The notes under the pieces were generated by a model. The model searched no databases. It worked only from the letters and a program-made list of their open reading frames with translations, and was not told where the DNA came from. From the IMG/VR virus record IMGVR_UViG_3300031226_000008, positions 1-23,457 of that record: a DNA stretch of 23,457 bases. The stretch is one strand, 5' to 3'. The position numbers and the translations under genes are program-made. The stretch is from a virus. Shown one piece after another: positions 507-16,279 of the stretch; positions within the stretch are counted from its first letter, which is position 1, and each line of letters opens with the position of its first letter.

Positions 507-874
507 GGGACAGGCCGACCGACAGGATCGAGGCCGGTCGCCTCGACGGCCAGTTCCACTCACCGAGTGCGGCGCGGTACGGCGCGTTCTCCGTCCTTGG
601 CCCATGCGGTCGCAAGCTGCTGGTGATTGCTGACGATGGTGTCGCGCGGCATGATGCGACCGGGTGGGAGCATGTGTCGGTGTCAATCGCGGGCAAGCAT
701 CCGCCGAACTGGCAGGAAATGAACTGGATCAAGGAGCAGTTCTGGCGCGATGACGAAACGGTGCTGCAATTCCACCCGGCCAAATCCGACTACGTCAACA
801 TCCACCCGAACTGCCTGCACCTGTGGCGCGTCGTCGCCCTCGATCATCCGCTGCCTGAAAGGCTGCTGGTATGA
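503..874 (+). CDS. DUF7694-like phage protein
   Basis: A 123-aa protein. I chose the GTG at 503 because it overlaps the previous stop as GTGA and has GAGGA at 492-496. The same frame is open back to an ATG at 350, but that stretch lies entirely over the preceding genes and is rich in Arg/Pro shadow sequence. The segments 'GWEHVSVSIAGKHPPNW', 'EMNWIKEQFWRDDETVLQFH' and 'SDYVNIHPNCLHLWR' match my memory of the DUF7694 pattern. That is a short phage domain with invariant Trp and His, commonly encoded among small early genes. Function is unknown. The gene ends in an ATGA overlap with the HNH-type gene. Confidence is high that it is a gene and moderate on the family. Confidence 0.8.
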   Translation: MRDRPTDRIEAGRLDGQFHSPSAARYGAFSVLGPCGRKLLVIADDGVARHDATGWEHVSVSIAGKHPPNWQEMNWIKEQFWRDDETVLQFHPAKSDYVNIHPNCLHLWRVVALDHPLPERLLV

Positions 875-1212
875 GAGCCGAATTCACCAAGGCCACGAAA
901 CGGGCGATCCACGCCCGCAGCGGGGGCCGCTGCGAGTGCTGGCGCTGCCCCGGCCTCGTGCCGTGCGGGCAGCGCCTCGGCTTTCCGAGGTTCTACGAGC
1001 ACATCATCCAGTGCGAAATCGGCGGCGATAATTCCATCGAGAACGGGGCGGTGCTAAACCTGACCTGCTGGCGGGCGAAGACTGCCAAGCAAGACCTGCC
1101 GGTGATCGCCAAGGTGAAGCGTGTTCGCGACCGTCATTGCGGCATTGTTACACGCAGCCGTCGCATCATGGGCTGGAAGCGGTTCGACGGCACCCCGGTC
1201 AGGAGGAAGTAG
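871..1212 (+). CDS. HNH endonuclease-like protein (variant active site)
   Basis: A 113-aa basic protein that starts at an ATG overlapping the previous stop (ATGA), with AAAGG at 858-862. It has a cysteine cluster at the N-terminus (C21, C23, C26, C32). An 'E43-H44' pair follows in 'FYEHIIQCEIGGDNSIENG', then N58 and 'LTCWRAKTAKQD'. This is the usual phage HNH layout: zinc cysteines, catalytic His, Asn, then Cys-His followed by AKT. HNH proteins nick or cut DNA and, beside terminases, help packaging; this copy lies among early genes instead. Where the family normally has Cys-His before the AKT motif, this protein has C66-W67, so the third canonical His appears to be missing. It may be a weakened enzyme or a DNA-binding derivative. 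Confidence 0.75.
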   Translation: MRAEFTKATKRAIHARSGGRCECWRCPGLVPCGQRLGFPRFYEHIIQCEIGGDNSIENGAVLNLTCWRAKTAKQDLPVIAKVKRVRDRHCGIVTRSRRIMGWKRFDGTPVRRK

Positions 1213-7622: not shown

Positions 7623-10600
7623 CTATTGCGACGGGACGGTGAAGCCACCGCCGCCTACGACTGCTGGCCTGCCGCGATGGTCCGGCAGCGGTTCTTGGAT
7701 CGGTCGGATATTCTCCGTGCGCCGCGCCGTGCGCCGGTCTTCGAGGCCGAGGTCTTGGCGCGGGATCGACAGCTTCTGATGCTCGCGGTGCGCGATGCCC
7801 GCCGCAATTTCGGCGTGAAACGCCGGGAAGCGCCACGGGGCCTCCGACATGATCTGGCGCTGCGCTGCCACCCGGTACTCCTGCACCCAATGCTTGATGT
7901 AGGCGGCCTTGCCGCTGTCGGTGCCGGTGACATCGGGGCCGCTTTTCTTCTCGTAGATGTACGAGTAGCGCGGATCGCCGCCGCTCACCATGCGGTTGAG
8001 GAAGTCTTCCAGCCCGATCTTCTCGCCGGTCACCGGGTTGTGCTGGAGTTCATTGCCAGCCAGCCGCCGATAGTAGTCGAGCACTTCCGGGTGATCGCGG
8101 AAGTTGACCTGCACGCCCATGAACGGGGCCTTCCACTCGATGCGCTGGATGCCGGTACGCAGGTTCACCAGTTCGTTGAAGGTGGCGTGGTCGTTTTTCC
8201 AGTTGAGCCGGAACGGGATCACCATGTTGTACATCGCGCCGCCGAGGCCCTTCGGCGACGGCTCGATCTGGTGACCGAACACGTCGCGGATCGGGATCAT
8301 GCGCTCCGACAGCAGCGGCATGTTCTTGTAAAACAGCGCACTCCACCAGCCGTCGATTTCGCGCTGCTGCGGGTCCATCGCCTGCCCGATTGCTCGCGCG
8401 GGCGCAACGCCGGGGATCACGTTCATCGAGGACGAGCCGAGGTCGCGCATGAAGGTGCCGAGCGAGGTGTCGCTGCCCTTCTTGTAGGTGTCGAGCGATC
8501 CCATCAGCTTCGACATGCCGGTCATGAACGACTGCCCGGTGGTCGAGTAGGCGGCGATGCTGATCGCGGTGTTGAGCCACTCGTCCCAAGTGTCGTAGGC
8601 CTCCGGGTGAACGTCCTTCGACTTCATCACCTGATCCATCGTGCCAGCGAAGGCGATCATCGGCGCAAGCTGGCCGAGGCCGCTGATCTGCACCTGCGCC
8701 CCGCCCGGACGTTGCAGCGCGAACGGCTTGATGCCCGCGCCTTCGAGGCTTTCCTTCCAGCCCTGATCGTTCGGCAATGGGCCGGTCAGGTTGCCGTTGT
8801 GCGCGTAGTCGAGCAGCAGCGCCATCGCCACCGCGCCCGTGGTCATCTTGGCGAGCGCCAGTTCCCGCGCAGCGCCGCCCGCGCCGAAGTCGGTGCGCCA
8901 GCGCCCGATGATCGGAGCCATCGGAGAGTGCTCGACCGCGTTGCGCAAGAGGTTCGACGGCGTGCGCACGTAGGGCATCGCCATGTAGATCGGCTGCACG
9001 TTGGAACGCAGTTGCAGCAGGCTTGAACCCCACTTCCCCGGCATGTCGTTGAAGGTAGCGTAGTTGGCGTGCGACATCGCCGCCAGCTTAATTTCGTCGC
9101 CGGGGTTGGAAATCAGGCTCGCCACCCGGTCGGCGAAGGCATTGCCCTGCAATCCTTCGGCCAGCGCCCTTCGATAGGCCTGCGCTTCGATTTCGCCCCG
9201 GTAGGCGATCACCTTGAAGAAGTCGTCGCCAGCGGCAAGGAAGCGACCCGGCATGCGCACGGTGTGGCCGATCATGTCGATGGCCTTGCCCATCGGGGTG
9301 GCTGCGAAGGCCTGCGCCTCCACCGCCGACTTGCGCATGGTTTCCGCTACCGCCTTCGAGGTGATGGTCGGCTGCATCGAGCCAGCCATCGTCTGCCCAC
9401 CGCCGCGCGACAGGTCGGCCTCCATCGGCCCCAGAGACTGCATCGGGAAGAACTGCCGCTCGCCCGTGCTGACCGCCTTGCCAGCGGTGACCCACGCCTC
9501 CTTGAACGCGCCAAGCTGGCCGCGCAGGTAGGCTGCGGCCTCACCCGGTGCGACCGAGGCTGCCGGGTCGGTGCCGAGCATCATGGCGTACTTTTCCGCC
9601 ACCTTGCGGTCCACCGACTGCCACATCGCGTTTGCGGTGTTGCCGACAAGGTTGCGCACCTGCGTGACGGGCCGCCACAGGAAGCCGAGCGCGTAGGCCT
9701 CCTTGTAGGCATCCCACGTCCAGCGGCCCCACCCGCGATTGAGCGCGACGTTGAGCGCCCCGGCAGGTGCGCCCTGCGCCTTCAGGTCCACGATCATTGA
9801 CGAGAGCCGCTTTGCTCCCTCGATACCGCCCGTGCCTTCGAGGAACGACTGCATCATCTGCGCCCGCGCGACCGCACCTTCCTGATGCACCGCACGCAGT
9901 GCGCCGAGCGCACGGCCCGCTTCGCCCGACACGCCGAGGAACTGTTCCAGCAGCGCCATGTGCGTGACCATCTGCTCGTTGACGCGGAAGGCGTCGAACG
10001 CCTCGCTCGACACCTCAGCCTTGCGGGCCAGATCGAGCAGGCGTGCGTCGGAGGCTTGCAGCAGCTTGCCCGCTGCGATGATCTTCTCAGCCGGAAATGC
10101 CTCGCCGATGCCGCGCTTGAGCAGGTCTTCGTGCGTCATGTTGAGGGCTTCGGCCAGTTGCTTCTGTGCCTGAAGGGTGAGCACGTCGCGCTTGGCGGCG
10201 CTGATCTGCGTCTTCATCTGCCCCGCGATGTCGCCGATCACACCGGGAAGGTTGCCCTTGTCGATGTTCTCCCACGTCACGTTGACGTTGAGGTCGGACA
10301 GCTTGACCGCCTTGGCGCTCTCGATTGCGGCCTTGCCGGTGACCTGTCCCGGTGTGCCGATCTTCGCCGTCGCCACGTCCCACGGCTGCTTCTCCCACGC
10401 CGTGTTGAAGTGCCGCTCCAGCGTTGCCTTGTACTGCTCGATTTCAGCGATTTGCGCAGGTGTTGGATCGGTGATGCGCTTGAACTTGTCGTAGATGCCG
10501 TGCAGTTGCTCCTGCACCGCGTTGATTTCGCGCGGCACGATCTGGATTTCGGCTGACAGGCCGGGGGCGACCTCGACCTGCGCATGGATGGCGCGGTAGC

Positions 10601-12155
10601 CGTCCTTCGGGTTGGCGATCTTGTCGTCAACCTCCAGCACCTTGAAGCGGCGGCCAAGGTCGTTGAGCACATCGGCTGCCGTCTGCGGGCTGTCCACCGA
10701 TACTCGCCCGCCGATATAGTCGCCGATCACTTGGGCTGGCCGACCGGCAGCAATCTTTTCCTCGACCCCGCTGGCCCCCTTGATGCGAACTCCGTTCGGG
10801 GCAACGTCAGAAGTCGCTACTTTCGCGCCGGGGTTGGCGCTGGCGACATCGGCCAGAGCCTGCTCGACCTCAGGCTTAACCTGTTCGCTGGCCGCTAAAA
10901 TTGCTTTGCTATCGCCGCTTGCTTGCTTTATACTTCGGCCTGTAGGTGTATCAATGCCGCCCAACTCAAATTTGCCCGTCAGGGTCGTTGACGGTCCCGT
11001 CCGCGTAGACGGGGTCGCCATGCGGCTGGTCGAACTCACCGATGGCTCCGGCAGGGTCGAGAGTTTCGTCAACGGGGCTTGGGTGCCCGGTGGCGGCTCC
11101 GTCAAAGACGTGCTGACCGGCACTCCCTTCCCAGAAGGGGAGGCCCCCGACAGCGGCTTGCCAACCGACACAGCGACCGCTGGCGCATCCGGCGCAACGC
11201 CTCCCGTCGCCCCCTTAACGAAGTAATCCGCGTGCGCCAGTTGCTCGTCCGGGGCCGCCCCTGCGGGCGAGCCGGGGATCGGCATTTCGGCAGGCGGCGC
11301 TCCGCTCGTCATCTTCGCCTTGATGAAGGCGCGGGTGGCCGACAGCCCGCGCACGATGGCTTCCGCAGCCACCCCCGTGACCAGACCCTCCGTTGCCTGC
11401 CGCAGCCGGTTGAGCGCCTCGTTGTCGTTCGGGTTGGTGGCGAGGAAGTCGCTGATCGGCCCCTTCAGTTGCGGGTACTTTTCCACAACCATGTTGGTCA
11501 GATTTGGCTGGCCGGGATCGGTGCCGAAGAACATCGACACCGCGCCCGCCCCCGGTGCCGCCATGAAGCCGCTGACCCCACCCGTCGCCATCGCCGCCAT
11601 CGCCGGACGGTAGAGCGTCATGAACTGGCTGATGTTGCGCACCAGCCCGCCCGTCACGCTCTCCGGTTTGCCGCCGATGCCAAGCACCTGCTCCGAGGTG
11701 AACTCAGGCGCACCCGGCAGCCCCATCGACTTGCCGATGGCGGTGCGCTCGCCCTCGCGCTGCGTCTTCGTCGCCTTGAGTTCCTCCGTGGTCTGCCCGC
11801 TGATCCACGGTGCATTTTCATCGAGCCAGTCGCCGAACGAGCCGACCGCCTGCCCGGTGTGCCGCCATGCGTCGAACCAGCCGCCCACGATCTGTCCCGG
11901 CGCTTCCATCACGCCCTTGCCGATGTCGGCTGCTGTCGCGCGGGCCTGCCGTTGCGCAGCCGAGCGTGAAATCTCCCAGAACGATCCGTTGGTCGGCGCA
12001 GGCGCATCGGGTGGCGGCGCAGGCGCAGGCTCGTCGGGCGGCGCAGTGCCGCGTGTCTTCATGTCGTCCAGCAGCTTCTGGAACTGCGCCTGATCGGCCC
12101 GCTCACGTGCGCTGGCGAGGTAAGTGCCGTCCGTGGTTTCGTTGCCGAGCGGCAT
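7623..12155 (-). CDS. Large internal virion (ejection) protein with embedded RelA/SpoT-like domain
   Basis: A 1510-aa protein in the position of T7 gp16. Residues 1 to about 300 are a Pro/Ala-rich start followed by Gly/Ala-rich helices. Residues about 425-585 look like a RelA/SpoT nucleotidyltransferase: R457, K459 and K467 in 'GVRIKGASGVEEKI', D479 in 'IGDYIGGRV', Y520 and H524 in 'NPKDGYRAIHAQV', and E536 in 'AEIQIVP', then 'LHGIYDKFK'. From about 640 to 1510 it is a helical ejection-protein body with hydrophobic stretches (KMTTGAVAMALLLDY) of the kind seen in large polyvalent phage proteins. It starts at an ATG sharing one base with the preceding stop (TGATG), with GGAGA upstream. It is probably packaged and injected into the cell. 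Enzyme activity is inferred only from conserved residues. Confidence 0.9.
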   Translation of the reverse strand: MPLGNETTDGTYLASARERADQAQFQKLLDDMKTRGTAPPDEPAPAPPPDAPAPTNGSFWEISRSAAQRQARATAADIGKGVMEAPGQIVGGWFDAWRHTGQAVGSFGDWLDENAPWISGQTTEELKATKTQREGERTAIGKSMGLPGAPEFTSEQVLGIGGKPESVTGGLVRNISQFMTLYRPAMAAMATGGVSGFMAAPGAGAVSMFFGTDPGQPNLTNMVVEKYPQLKGPISDFLATNPNDNEALNRLRQATEGLVTGVAAEAIVRGLSATRAFIKAKMTSGAPPAEMPIPGSPAGAAPDEQLAHADYFVKGATGGVAPDAPAVAVSVGKPLSGASPSGKGVPVSTSLTEPPPGTQAPLTKLSTLPEPSVSSTSRMATPSTRTGPSTTLTGKFELGGIDTPTGRSIKQASGDSKAILAASEQVKPEVEQALADVASANPGAKVATSDVAPNGVRIKGASGVEEKIAAGRPAQVIGDYIGGRVSVDSPQTAADVLNDLGRRFKVLEVDDKIANPKDGYRAIHAQVEVAPGLSAEIQIVPREINAVQEQLHGIYDKFKRITDPTPAQIAEIEQYKATLERHFNTAWEKQPWDVATAKIGTPGQVTGKAAIESAKAVKLSDLNVNVTWENIDKGNLPGVIGDIAGQMKTQISAAKRDVLTLQAQKQLAEALNMTHEDLLKRGIGEAFPAEKIIAAGKLLQASDARLLDLARKAEVSSEAFDAFRVNEQMVTHMALLEQFLGVSGEAGRALGALRAVHQEGAVARAQMMQSFLEGTGGIEGAKRLSSMIVDLKAQGAPAGALNVALNRGWGRWTWDAYKEAYALGFLWRPVTQVRNLVGNTANAMWQSVDRKVAEKYAMMLGTDPAASVAPGEAAAYLRGQLGAFKEAWVTAGKAVSTGERQFFPMQSLGPMEADLSRGGGQTMAGSMQPTITSKAVAETMRKSAVEAQAFAATPMGKAIDMIGHTVRMPGRFLAAGDDFFKVIAYRGEIEAQAYRRALAEGLQGNAFADRVASLISNPGDEIKLAAMSHANYATFNDMPGKWGSSLLQLRSNVQPIYMAMPYVRTPSNLLRNAVEHSPMAPIIGRWRTDFGAGGAARELALAKMTTGAVAMALLLDYAHNGNLTGPLPNDQGWKESLEGAGIKPFALQRPGGAQVQISGLGQLAPMIAFAGTMDQVMKSKDVHPEAYDTWDEWLNTAISIAAYSTTGQSFMTGMSKLMGSLDTYKKGSDTSLGTFMRDLGSSSMNVIPGVAPARAIGQAMDPQQREIDGWWSALFYKNMPLLSERMIPIRDVFGHQIEPSPKGLGGAMYNMVIPFRLNWKNDHATFNELVNLRTGIQRIEWKAPFMGVQVNFRDHPEVLDYYRRLAGNELQHNPVTGEKIGLEDFLNRMVSGGDPRYSYIYEKKSGPDVTGTDSGKAAYIKHWVQEYRVAAQRQIMSEAPWRFPAFHAEIAAGIAHREHQKLSIPRQDLGLEDRRTARRTENIRPIQEPLPDHRGRPAVVGGGGFTVPSQ
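10398..10880 (-). other. Domain: RelA/SpoT-like nucleotidyltransferase inside the ejection protein
   Basis: This is the DNA for residues about 425-585 of the 1510-aa protein. In the family the synthetase transfers pyrophosphate from ATP to the 3'-OH of GDP or GTP. Toxic small members make (pp)pApp or pyrophosphorylate tRNA. The order of key residues is R-x-K-(7)-K, then D after 12, Y-x-x-x-H after 41, and E after 16 from the Tyr. As I remember it, Streptococcus RelA has R241, K243, K251, D264, Y308, H312 and E323, giving gaps of 8, 13, 44 and 15, against 8, 12, 41 and 16 here. No HD hydrolase domain is present. Which product or substrate it uses cannot be told. Confidence 0.75.
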
Positions 12156-15100
12156 CAGATGTTCTCCTGCAAGTCAGTGCGCGTGCGTTGCTGCATCACG
12201 TCCTGCGGCTGGATCGCGAGCCGGTCGGGGTTCGTCGTGCCGGTCGGCGGCGGCACCTCGATCTGGTCGCCGCTTGGGCGGCCCATTGGAGGCAGTGGCT
12301 GCGGTGCAATGGTCGCTCCCATCTTCTGCGGGGCGAGCGGGTTGGCTGGCGCAGTCTTGGGCGCTGCCGGGTTCGACTGCTGCGCCTTCTTGGCTGCGGT
12401 GTCGGCCTTCAGCTTCTGCTCGATCTTGAGCGTCGAGCGCCACTGGTTGAGCAGGTTCTGCTGCTGGTTCATGTCGGCGATGTTGCCGCCCCTGCCTTCC
12501 GACATCTTCACCACGTCGCTGTCCAGCTTGGCCTGCGCCCGGTTGATGTCGTCCTCGTTGATGTCGCGGCGGCCCTTGCCGGTCGCGCCGTTGTCGAAGT
12601 AGCGCGAGAACACCAGCCGGTCGCGCACCGCGTTCGACTGATCGTCGGCGGCCCGCTTGATGATTTCGTCGCCCTTGGCATCGACCGCAGCGTCGGAGCC
12701 GATCACCGGCTTGTTGGCGGGATCGCGCACCCACAGGTCGAACTCGCGCAGCGCGTCGGCCATGCGGTTGCGAGCGTCCATGCCTTCCTCGCCCGCCACG
12801 CCGGGGGTCAGCTTCTCGTGGATGTAGGCCCGCACGCGCTCGACCGGGGTCTTGGTTCCGGCGCGGAAGATGTCGCCGTTGCGGCGTGCCCACTCGCCTG
12901 CCTGTCCGGCGTCGAGGTTGCGGTTGCGGATGTGCGCCTCCAGCGTCTTGCGGAACTCGTCGGGCGGCTGGTTGCGAACGTCTTCATCGAGCGACATCAG
13001 AACGCCAGCGTCCTCGCGCACGGGCGGCTTGTCGCGCAGCGTGTAGGCGGTCTGCAACTGCGTCGGCGACATCCACTTCTTGCTGGCGTCGATCATGTCG
13101 GTGGTGACAGCCTTGCCTGCGAAGGCGGCATCCATGATGCCCTTGGTCGCTTCGTCGCCTAGCTTGTGCATGCGCTTCTCGTTGATTTCGTTGATCTTGA
13201 CCGCCAGCTTGCTGGCTTCCTCGAAATTCTTGACGTGCTGCGTGAAGGCCGCGTCCTGCGGGTTGACGTTGTCGGGCGACAGGTTGCGCAGGTCGGCGGC
13301 CATCTGTTCCGGCGTGGTGTCCTCGCCCCACCGCGTATTCGCGTGGTACTTCAGGTTTGCCTCCCGCGCCGCCAGCCGCTTCTCCGCTTCGGTCGCCCCG
13401 AAGATCATCGCCAGCGCCTCAGGCGTCAGACTTGGATCGACGCCCGCCGCGCCGTGCGTCTTCACCGACATTTCCTCCTGCGTCAGCGTGGCATCGGCTG
13501 TTGTGCGGGCGGTCTTGCGATAGGCTTCGGCCTGCGCCCGCACCGCCTTCATGCGGCTGTCCCAATGTTCCTCGTCCTTCTGGAATTCGTGCGGCGTCTG
13601 CCCCAACATCGGGGACGCACCCACCACGCCGGGAGCCTTGAAGCCGCCCGTGCCGCCGAGCGGCTGCTGCCCGGTCACCGGCTGCTGCTCTGTCACCCCC
13701 TGCTGCTTGGCCGCAAGTGCGCGGGCTTCCGACTGGTGCAGCCGTTCCGCAAAGTCGTCCGCCGCTGCCGAGTTGTCGAAGATGCCGAGGTGTCTGCCGC
13801 TGGCGTTGTACTGCTCGACCGCCGCCCGGTCGGACAGAACGCGGGAGCCGTCATGTGCCACGGTCGGGATCAGCACGGTGCCCTGATCGGTGCCGATGGA
13901 CATCGAGCGCACCGTGGAAATCGAGCCGTCCGCGTTCTTCACCTGCGGCTGCTTCGACACGTCGATGTTGCCGGGGACGGTGAGGCCCTCGCGCCCGCGC
14001 ACCACCAGCGACTGCGTCGGCGTGCCGCCCGCGCTCCGCGCAAGCTGGAAATGCGGCATGTCGCTGCCGCCGAGGTGCTCCAGCCCGAACTCCGCTGCGT
14101 GCTGGCGCAGCCACTCGCGGGCGGGCGAATAGTTGAGGTCGGCGGCTTCCGCGCCGCCAGCGCGTTGCTCGTGCTCGTGCCGCGACTGCCCCGGCTTGGC
14201 CGCCAGCCCTCCGGTGCCAGCCTCGTATTTGGCCCGGTATTTTGCCTGCGTTTCGGTGGTGCGGCCCATTTCGTTGATGGTGATCTTGCTCCCGGTGGCG
14301 TCTTCCGCCGCCTTGATGCCAGCCGCCAGCCGCGAGGCGAACACCGGGTTGACCTTGTCAACGTAGAGTTCGGACGGCTTGCCGTCCTTGCCGACCACGG
14401 CGCGGGACGTGAAGAAGGCCGGGTCCACCACCGCCGCCGCTGGTCCGCCAGCCTCGCCCGTGACCTTGCTGCTCCACGTCGCCACGAAGGCGCGGCTGGT
14501 CACGTTGTTGACATCGTTGCCGAACGCCTTCTTGTCGGCCTGCGACAGGTTGCCCCAGATCGCCGACTTGGCGATTTCGTCGCTCTTGTAGAAGCGCCGC
14601 ACGTTCTGCCACGCCACCCCGTCAGGGTTCGCCATGTGGGCGGCTGCTCCTGCGTAGCCCTGCTGGTGGATCAGGTACTGTTCGGTCGGCGTCGGATCGC
14701 GCCCCATCGCCGTCTTGAAGCGGGCGTTCTCGTCCGCCATCTTCCGCGCCGTCGCGAACACGTTGTCGTTGGCGTCGAAGATGTTGCCACCCGGTCGCCC
14801 GTACTTGGTGAACAGGTCGTCGGACAGTTGGGTCGCACCCTTGTTGTTGCCGGTCACCGCGTTGGGGTTGCCGTTGCTCTCGATGCTGATCGTGGCCTTG
14901 AGCACGCCGGGATCGACCCCGTTCTTCGCGGCGGCGTCGTCGGCGATCTTGCCGAGCGGGGTCTTGTCGATGTCCGACACCCGCTTCGAGTTGACCCCGC
15001 CGAGCGGGGTTTCCGGCAGCGTGGTGACGCCAAGCCCCCGCGCGATGGTGTCCTTGCCCGTCTTCTTGAAGTCGTCCCACTCCTGCAACACCTTCTCGTC

Positions 15101-15763
15101 CAGCGGGTTCTGGAGGGCGCGGGCCTCGTATCCCTTGTTGATGGCATCGTAGTACTGCCGCCCGTACTTGATCAGCAGGTCGCGCTTGGCGAGGTCGTTG
15201 CGGTTTGTCTCAGCCACCAGCGACTTGGTGGTGTCGAGCGCCTGCGGCAGGTTGCCGGGGTTCTGCTGCAACAGCGCCGACTGCTTCTCTGCCGAGCCGT
15301 CGATCTGCTTCTCGACGTAGATGTCGTTGGTCTTGACCGCTTCGGCGTCCCACTGGAGGCCCTTGCGGTTGTGATAGTTGTGAACGGTGGCGTCGGCCTG
15401 CGGCAGGTTGCGCCCGTAGATCGAGCCGCGCCGCTCGTTCCAGTCGTTGGCGGCGAAGTCGCGCAGCATCTGCGGCTTGGCCGAGGCCTGATCGGCGGGC
15501 AGGTCGCGGTCGAGTTTGAGTTCGTACTGGCCGACCGCTGTCTCGTGGTCCGACAGCGCCGACTTCGAGGCGATTGCCCCCTGCTCGTTGGCGTTGGCGG
15601 CGAGCGCCTCGCCCATCTGCGAAATGCCCTGCCCGATGGCCTTGCCCGCGAACGCCTGCGCCTCGCCGATCTGCGCCCCGAAGGCGTTCGGCGTTGCGTG
15701 CGGGGTGTTGCTGGCACCCGGCAGGTCGCTGACGTTCTGCTCCCAGATCGGAACCTTGACCAT
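12155..15763 (-). CDS. Internal virion protein with lytic transglycosylase-like and M15 peptidase-like domains
   Basis: A 1202-aa protein in the T7 gp15 position. The N-terminal 270 residues are helical. Residues about 275-400 look like a goose-lysozyme/SLT transglycosylase: 'GVDPGVLKATISIESNGNPN' with likely catalytic E295, then 'GATQLSDDLFTKYG'. Residues about 475-580 resemble M15 peptidases (VanY/L-Ala-D-Glu type): 'SRHE' with H529, 'AADL' with D542 and 'DMPHFQL' with D568 and H571 as zinc or catalytic residues. Residues about 590-685 (PGNIDVSKQPQVKNADGSIS, 'HLGIFDNSAAADDFAERLH') are a module I recall from many phage proteins. The rest is mainly helical. During entry it would open the cell wall for DNA passage. 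Its ATG directly follows the stop of the 171-aa gene (TAGATG). Confidence 0.9.
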   Translation of the reverse strand: MVKVPIWEQNVSDLPGASNTPHATPNAFGAQIGEAQAFAGKAIGQGISQMGEALAANANEQGAIASKSALSDHETAVGQYELKLDRDLPADQASAKPQMLRDFAANDWNERRGSIYGRNLPQADATVHNYHNRKGLQWDAEAVKTNDIYVEKQIDGSAEKQSALLQQNPGNLPQALDTTKSLVAETNRNDLAKRDLLIKYGRQYYDAINKGYEARALQNPLDEKVLQEWDDFKKTGKDTIARGLGVTTLPETPLGGVNSKRVSDIDKTPLGKIADDAAAKNGVDPGVLKATISIESNGNPNAVTGNNKGATQLSDDLFTKYGRPGGNIFDANDNVFATARKMADENARFKTAMGRDPTPTEQYLIHQQGYAGAAAHMANPDGVAWQNVRRFYKSDEIAKSAIWGNLSQADKKAFGNDVNNVTSRAFVATWSSKVTGEAGGPAAAVVDPAFFTSRAVVGKDGKPSELYVDKVNPVFASRLAAGIKAAEDATGSKITINEMGRTTETQAKYRAKYEAGTGGLAAKPGQSRHEHEQRAGGAEAADLNYSPAREWLRQHAAEFGLEHLGGSDMPHFQLARSAGGTPTQSLVVRGREGLTVPGNIDVSKQPQVKNADGSISTVRSMSIGTDQGTVLIPTVAHDGSRVLSDRAAVEQYNASGRHLGIFDNSAAADDFAERLHQSEARALAAKQQGVTEQQPVTGQQPLGGTGGFKAPGVVGASPMLGQTPHEFQKDEEHWDSRMKAVRAQAEAYRKTARTTADATLTQEEMSVKTHGAAGVDPSLTPEALAMIFGATEAEKRLAAREANLKYHANTRWGEDTTPEQMAADLRNLSPDNVNPQDAAFTQHVKNFEEASKLAVKINEINEKRMHKLGDEATKGIMDAAFAGKAVTTDMIDASKKWMSPTQLQTAYTLRDKPPVREDAGVLMSLDEDVRNQPPDEFRKTLEAHIRNRNLDAGQAGEWARRNGDIFRAGTKTPVERVRAYIHEKLTPGVAGEEGMDARNRMADALREFDLWVRDPANKPVIGSDAAVDAKGDEIIKRAADDQSNAVRDRLVFSRYFDNGATGKGRRDINEDDINRAQAKLDSDVVKMSEGRGGNIADMNQQQNLLNQWRSTLKIEQKLKADTAAKKAQQSNPAAPKTAPANPLAPQKMGATIAPQPLPPMGRPSGDQIEVPPPTGTTNPDRLAIQPQDVMQQRTRTDLQENI

Positions 15764-16279
15764 CTACCCGAACAGCGACTGACCGCCGCCCCCGACAGAC
15801 TTGAAGAAGCCACCGGCAGCGCCTGTGATGCCGCCGATGATTGCGCCCTGCGCCTTGATCTTCCCGGCCTTGAGTGCGTTCGATGCTTCCATTTCGTTGA
15901 GCACGGCCTGATCCTGCCAGCGTTGGCTCTCGATGCGTCCGGCGTATTGCTGCGCCGCCACGTCGCCCTCGATGCGTCCGGCGCTCTCGCCGAACACCGT
16001 GATCGGCGTGCCGCTGCCGACCTCCGCGCCGCCTGAGGCGAAGGCAAGCCTCTGCCGCGCCAGCGCGTATTCTCCCTTGATGGCAACGTCCTGCGACTTC
16101 TCGCTGGCCTTGTAGGCTTCCGCCGTGGCGTTGTTGCGGGCCACCTGCGCCTTGTACTGCGCCGCCTGCGCTTCCGCCTGCGCCTGCTGCTGCGCTCCCG
16201 CCGCCGAGGCCATCGCGCCGACAATGCTGCCGACCGCCGAGAGCACCGGGCCGATGATCGCAAGCGCAGCTACGCACAT
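15764..16279 (-). CDS. Internal virion protein, T7 gp14-like position
   Basis: A 171-aa protein. An N-terminal hydrophobic segment (ALAIIGPVLSAVGSIVGAMA) is followed by a long Ala/Gln-rich helix (AGAQQQAQAEAQAAQYKAQV), then 'LARQRLAFASGGAEVGSGTP' and a Gly-rich end (GGFFKSVGGGGQSLFG). This layout is typical of small podoviral internal core proteins that insert into the outer membrane on ejection and start the channel built with the two larger proteins encoded next. GGGGTGA lies four bases before the ATG. It sits between the nozzle gene and the 1202-aa gene, which matches the position of T7 gene 14. Sequence identity to gp14 itself is not claimed. Confidence 0.85.
   Translation of the reverse strand: MCVAALAIIGPVLSAVGSIVGAMASAAGAQQQAQAEAQAAQYKAQVARNNATAEAYKASEKSQDVAIKGEYALARQRLAFASGGAEVGSGTPITVFGESAGRIEGDVAAQQYAGRIESQRWQDQAVLNEMEASNALKAGKIKAQGAIIGGITGAAGGFFKSVGGGGQSLFG

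Follow-up and report, generated by a model that had tools for sequence, protein, structure and literature searches.

The principle of a phage protein that carries a RelA/SpoT-type synthetase (RSH) domain is already known, from published polyvalent proteins and MuF-Apk2 toxins. Iyer et al., 2017 (PMC5512222) describe RelA/SpoT domains in phage polyvalent proteins, which are large and thought to be packaged and injected, and already suggest that host expression is shut down or altered through an alarmone-like response. The RSH examples in that paper belong to Spirochaete and epsilonproteobacterial (pro)phages and to MuF fusions; gp16, ejection and internal virion proteins did not come up in text searches of it. 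Paulet et al., 2025 (PMC12226406) report the MuF-Apk2 polymorphic toxins, in which a prophage-encoded MuF virion protein bears an RSH synthetase as its C-terminal toxin and the immunity genes, for the small hydrolase Aph1 and for IapK, are adjacent. For the toxSAS, CapRel and Tas1 toxins, which have the same fold, neutralisation by hydrolases is known, and hydrolases have been published as self-resistance against RSH toxins (PMC9765508).

Here, the domain lies in a large homologue of internal virion protein D within a T7-like module, and relatives of the phage encode a hydrolase that is not linked to it; this carrier, the unlinked hydrolase and an exchangeable slot in the carrier appear to be new within the open-licence literature. 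Our main reading, to which we assign a probability of roughly 0.5, is that of an ejection protein holding an RSH pyrophosphokinase as cargo between its N and C blocks, the action of which would later be cancelled by a phage hydrolase. As in MuF-Apk2, a virion protein is fused to an RSH synthetase and a small phage-encoded hydrolase is the candidate immunity protein. Unlike in MuF-Apk2, the domain is internal, a whole-protein Pfam scan gave no MuF match (no family at E ≤ 1), the neighbours of the domain gene are structural with no IapK or Aph1 among them, the hydrolase gene is ~15 kb away from gp16 where measured (G004), and no integrase (PF00589) scored over the cut-off in the RSH-bearing records. 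In contrast to toxSAS, CapRel and Tas1, there is neither a toxin-antitoxin operon nor a secretion domain.

On the minus strand of the window, by which we mean the whole 23,457-base virus record analysed, lies a T7-like structural module, in the order portal fragment, scaffold-like protein, major capsid protein, tail tube A and B, gp14-like, gp15-like and gp16-position proteins, and then fibre genes. The carrier is the gp16-position protein (7623–12155, minus strand, as are all module features below), a very large multidomain protein of 1510 aa encoded amid virion genes, with the gp15-like gene on one side and the fibre genes on the other. It matches an internal virion protein family (phrog_6651, E 1.3e-18) and aligns in hhalign with internal virion protein D of marine Autographiviridae (E 9.9e-73, 1106 columns), and gene order agrees with the position of that protein. 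T7 gp16 shares this gene position, but the carrier has no significant sequence link to it (hhalign E about 0.1), a fold search of the carrier in the PDB gave no clear match and did not reach T7 gp16, and an extra enzyme domain is present here. In T7 the transglycosylase sits in gp16. In the window it is the gp15-position protein (1202 aa, 12155–15763) that has an SLT-like transglycosylase region (residues 275–350; Pfam SLT E 0.002, below the Pfam cut-off), together with an endolysin-like region (residues 469–581; phrog_22520 and phrog_2649, endolysin). The gp14-position internal virion protein follows at 15764–16279 (phrog_418, E 4.9e-19).

Within the carrier, family profiles delimit a conserved N block (residues 141–290, 11286–11735) and a conserved, all-helical C block (residues 601–1510, 7623–10355), the latter also seen in an AlphaFold2 model of the insert-free relative L022. 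Between them lie a linker rich in Pro, Ser and Thr (residues 291–410, 10926–11285; 50–59% identity in homologues) and the RSH domain. No LPD domain matched in the whole-protein Pfam scan, which misses divergent domains.

The sequence-only reading had proposed a RelA/SpoT-type domain inside this protein because seven residues follow the order, and come close to the spacing, of the synthetase active site. Both the residues and the domain were confirmed. R457, K459 and K467 form the donor-phosphate motif R-x-K-x7-K (10755–10787), the spacing of the RelSeq synthetase; they are followed by D479 (10719–10721), equivalent to the metal-binding aspartate, by Y520 and H524 (spacing +4) in the acceptor-side motif GYRAIH (10584–10598), aligned to GYQSIH of RelSeq, and by E536 (10548–10550), equivalent to the catalytic glutamate, in an EIQI that aligns to those of RelSeq and RelA. 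All seven are invariant in an alignment of 11 rows (the window and ten homologous records), with the equivalents of D479 and E536 retained in every record; R484, K512 and Q538 are invariant across the ten records as well. As to its extent, the position first given (10398–10880) was right but the bounds were slightly too narrow, and we place the domain at residues ~415–600 (~10356–10913).

Profile and fold searches agreed with the motifs. The isolated residues 420–590 scored 28.1 bits against PF04607 RelA_SpoT (cut-off 27, E 2.6e-6), while the Pfam scan of the full-length 1510-aa protein did not list this family, so the match is weak without homologues. With a family profile, GTP pyrophosphokinases came out on top among PDB sequences (YwaC, E 8.5e-4). 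An AlphaFold2 model of the domain, built on seven sequences, reached a pLDDT of 87.4 and a pTM of 0.83; Foldseek found 63 PDB matches to it at E ≤ 1e-3, and the best 50 of the 63 are all RSH enzymes. By VIA, the model resembles B. subtilis SAS1 with pppGpp (Z 15.8 over 163 residues), RelP (15.7), an exported synthetase (15.1), CapRel (13.4) and Tas1 (12.9). The fold is thus of the RelQ/RelP type, not an unrelated one, and the match is far above chance level. The closest solved structures, RelQ/SAS1 and RelP/SAS2 (Z 15.2–15.8), differ in being stand-alone enzymes with about 20–24% identity to the domain; the BFVD database includes large proteins of uncultured phages with this RSH fold. A chance motif was considered and is ruled out by the fold, the Pfam match and the homologues. 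We are almost certain that this is a RelA/SpoT-type synthetase domain. dN/dS over the domain is 0.14–0.39, and we hold a catalytically competent enzyme to be quite probable.

The substrate is a different matter, as it is not readable from the RSH fold. The Asn of the guanine-side NGY motif, present in RelSeq, RelA and the aligned RelP sequence, is lost here, the homologues having D, Y, G or H in its place, and the alignment has one residue fewer before this position than RelSeq. With this Asn not kept, GDP or GTP as acceptor, and (p)ppGpp as product, are not to be assumed.

The fusion is a recurrent one. The tail tube B protein brought in 75 relatives, and with further scans the same domain was located in the same protein in ten records (L010, L012, L014, L020, L025, L091, L095, L097, L098 and L024/L100), on contigs of several metagenomes, with a core (residues 457–560) 65–71% identical to that of the window; most relatives lack it. 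On the tail-protein tree the RSH-bearing genomes cluster in a single group. Our own RSH profile, run on the loci gathered, found the domain in this phage group and in L113, and otherwise in two cellular RelA/SpoT genes only. When the domain or gp16 served as a single-sequence query against viral contigs, nothing matched, although the tail-tube protein did find matches; a PF04607 genome scan (0/89) is a weak negative, as it also missed the known positives G002–G004 and G051. The tblastn matches of the domain in phages and plasmids that we inspected were cellular RelA/SpoT genes. L113:1-2139, a contig of an alphaproteobacterial MAG, encodes another large, helical, polyvalent-like protein, which has a related RSH domain (35% identity) as its C-terminal part. 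In L024, L090 and L100 (G008), gp16 and tail tube B carry apparent frameshifts, probably sequencing errors; the 48% tail-tube identity of L024/G008 is misleading as a distance because of these frameshifts in the contig.

We consider it highly probable that the carrier is present in the virion, and its injection with the DNA is likely, judging from its family and gene position. In the T7 model given in a review (PMC8954989), gp16 residues 411–1118 lie in the host cytoplasm, with a membrane region on either side. Weakly hydrophobic stretches occur in the window protein and its close homologues near 265–287 and 1099–1211, with the RSH domain in between, so cytoplasmic exposure is a reasonable analogy with the T7 model. 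It is by analogy that the domain is placed on this side, given the missing sequence and fold links between the carrier and T7 gp16, and we favour its delivery to the cytoplasm with a confidence somewhat above even.

The middle of the carrier varies across its family. A family-profile scan gathered 80 relatives, most of which consist of an N block and a C block with a variable middle. As an example, in the L123 ORF that starts at 482 (2994 aa) the two blocks flank a Zeta-toxin-type kinase (E 1.9e-14); this protein is a giant relative of the carrier, with ~1700 aa, kinase included, separating N and C blocks. In L180 and L171 an ART-PolyVal domain lies N-terminal to the C block, accompanied in L171 by an inorganic pyrophosphatase; no N block was detected in these two. 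More distant gp16-position proteins contain ART, ddrB-ParB, LPD38, LPD22 or GNAT domains, but hhalign did not show them to be homologous to the carrier.

The earlier remark that no hydrolase is adjacent to the domain is correct for the 23-kb fragment, but larger RSH-bearing relatives encode one elsewhere. All four RSH-bearing records above 25 kb (G004, G008, G048 and G049) contain an ORF of 174–187 aa matching PF13328. The protein (~171–182 aa, HD_4 domain) retains an intact H...HD...ED motif, with H41, H65-D66, E69-D70 and KLAD-x-IDN invariant, and its best PDB match is Mesh1 (E 5e-20). No such hydrolase was found in 38 other tail-tube relatives, in the domain-free G006 and G007, or in 43 further carrier relatives; counting only RSH-free relatives of at least 24 kb, it occurs in 0 of about 58, against 4/4 large RSH-bearing ones. 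A Fisher test of 4/4 against 0/16 gives p 2e-4, uncorrected for kinship, and since the RSH-bearing genomes are one clade the four cases are not four independent events. Among deposited phages a similar hydrolase is present in 136 of 50,697. Hydrolase contigs L214 and L215/L216 end before gp16 and overlap the RSH-bearing contig L020 at 98% and 92% DNA identity, and thus probably represent the remaining part of that type of genome. In five other hydrolase-bearing phages that we examined no RSH domain was detected, so the hydrolase is not exclusive to RSH-bearing phages. Low copy number per virion, which the sequence-only reading had offered as the possible safety control, is weakened as the only one by the Mesh1-type hydrolases of the four large relatives. 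The co-occurrence suggests a toxin-immunity or shock-and-reset pair, and on balance we think the hydrolase is the functional partner of the domain.

A sister genome without either the domain or the hydrolase bears on this pairing. G007 is close to the RSH-bearing phages in capsid (83% identity), portal (78%), tail tube B (74%) and gp14 (72%), while its gp15 (39%) and gp16 (32%) have been swapped for divergent, RSH-free versions. It retains the HTH-GcrA pair that adjoins the hydrolase gene in RSH-bearing genomes, with other ORFs at the place of the hydrolase. The tail-tube tree puts it inside the RSH-bearing group with moderate support (forks 91/91 and 84/89, not firm). This is a single event, suggestive of a functional link between domain and hydrolase. 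By eye, the two ORFs at that place (L107:18229-19577) have signal peptides and PEP-CTERM-like C termini.

From these data we propose the following course of events. The gp16-position protein would be ejected into the cell with the DNA, and its RSH domain would end up on the cytoplasmic side, as is modelled for the central and C-terminal regions of gp16 in T7. There it may transfer pyrophosphate from ATP to GDP/GTP, to ADP/ATP or to the CCA ends of tRNA, slowing host translation or growth ahead of phage gene expression. The Mesh1-type hydrolase known from the relatives, expressed once the DNA has entered, would afterwards clear the RSH product. This would protect phage synthesis, and the cell when many copies of gp16 are made late, and could also guard against later virions of the same type. 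In its widest form, the proposal is a two-part entry programme (immediate host arrest by a preformed RSH enzyme brought in along with the DNA, then a reset of the signal by the hydrolase, which also confers immunity to later virions) run from an ejection-protein family whose slot is a general cargo bay for RSH, Zeta-type kinase and possibly ADP-ribosyltransferase domains. All of this holding together is a tentative suggestion, somewhat short of an even chance.

The timing of the enzyme could be otherwise. In T7-like phages gp16-type proteins are late structural genes. An active RSH domain might exert its effect late, inside the cell that makes the virions, where gp16 copies are then many, or against competing phages, with injection incidental and the hydrolase, needed exactly at that stage, limiting the damage. 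We find this improbable: the domain is built into a structural protein of the ejection module instead of being a free protein, and other family members have other enzymes near the same place, which fits delivery. It is also unlikely, to a similar degree, that the domain has given up catalysis and serves the ejectosome as a structural or nucleic-acid-binding module, as could be argued from the loss of the NGY Asn and from DNA binding by the T7 counterpart of the carrier (PMC8954989); seven catalytic residues invariant across diverged homologues, purifying selection on the domain and the co-occurring hydrolase all speak for an enzyme.

The pairing itself may be fortuitous, if the hydrolase serves to reduce the (p)ppGpp made by the host itself, a role proposed for instance in Pseudomonas phage Adele, and accompanies the domain by common descent. 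Small alarmone hydrolases are indeed present in phages in which no RSH domain was detected (PMC12846349) and all RSH-bearing genomes share one group on the tail-protein tree, but G007, nested in that group on forks that are not firm, is without both domain and hydrolase, and we regard an unrelated hydrolase as doubtful. Should delivery of an RSH cargo, later cancelled by the hydrolase, prove true, a podophage would bring in a nucleotide- or tRNA-modifying enzyme at the onset of infection under the control of a hydrolase encoded elsewhere in its genome. This would provide a testable system for the roles of virion-delivered alarmone enzymes, be it host arrest, counter-defence or exclusion of rivals. 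In a widespread podophage group, the ejection protein would then be a carrier of exchangeable enzymes, an aid to annotating the many unexplained inserts of proteins of this kind.

Near the left end of the window (871–1212), a small ORF looks by eye like an HNH endonuclease. In L109, L110, L111, L112 and L107:17466-17969, GcrA-like proteins, read from the sequence, adjoin an XRE-like HTH gene, and their presence in these phages is a pointer to alphaproteobacterial hosts.
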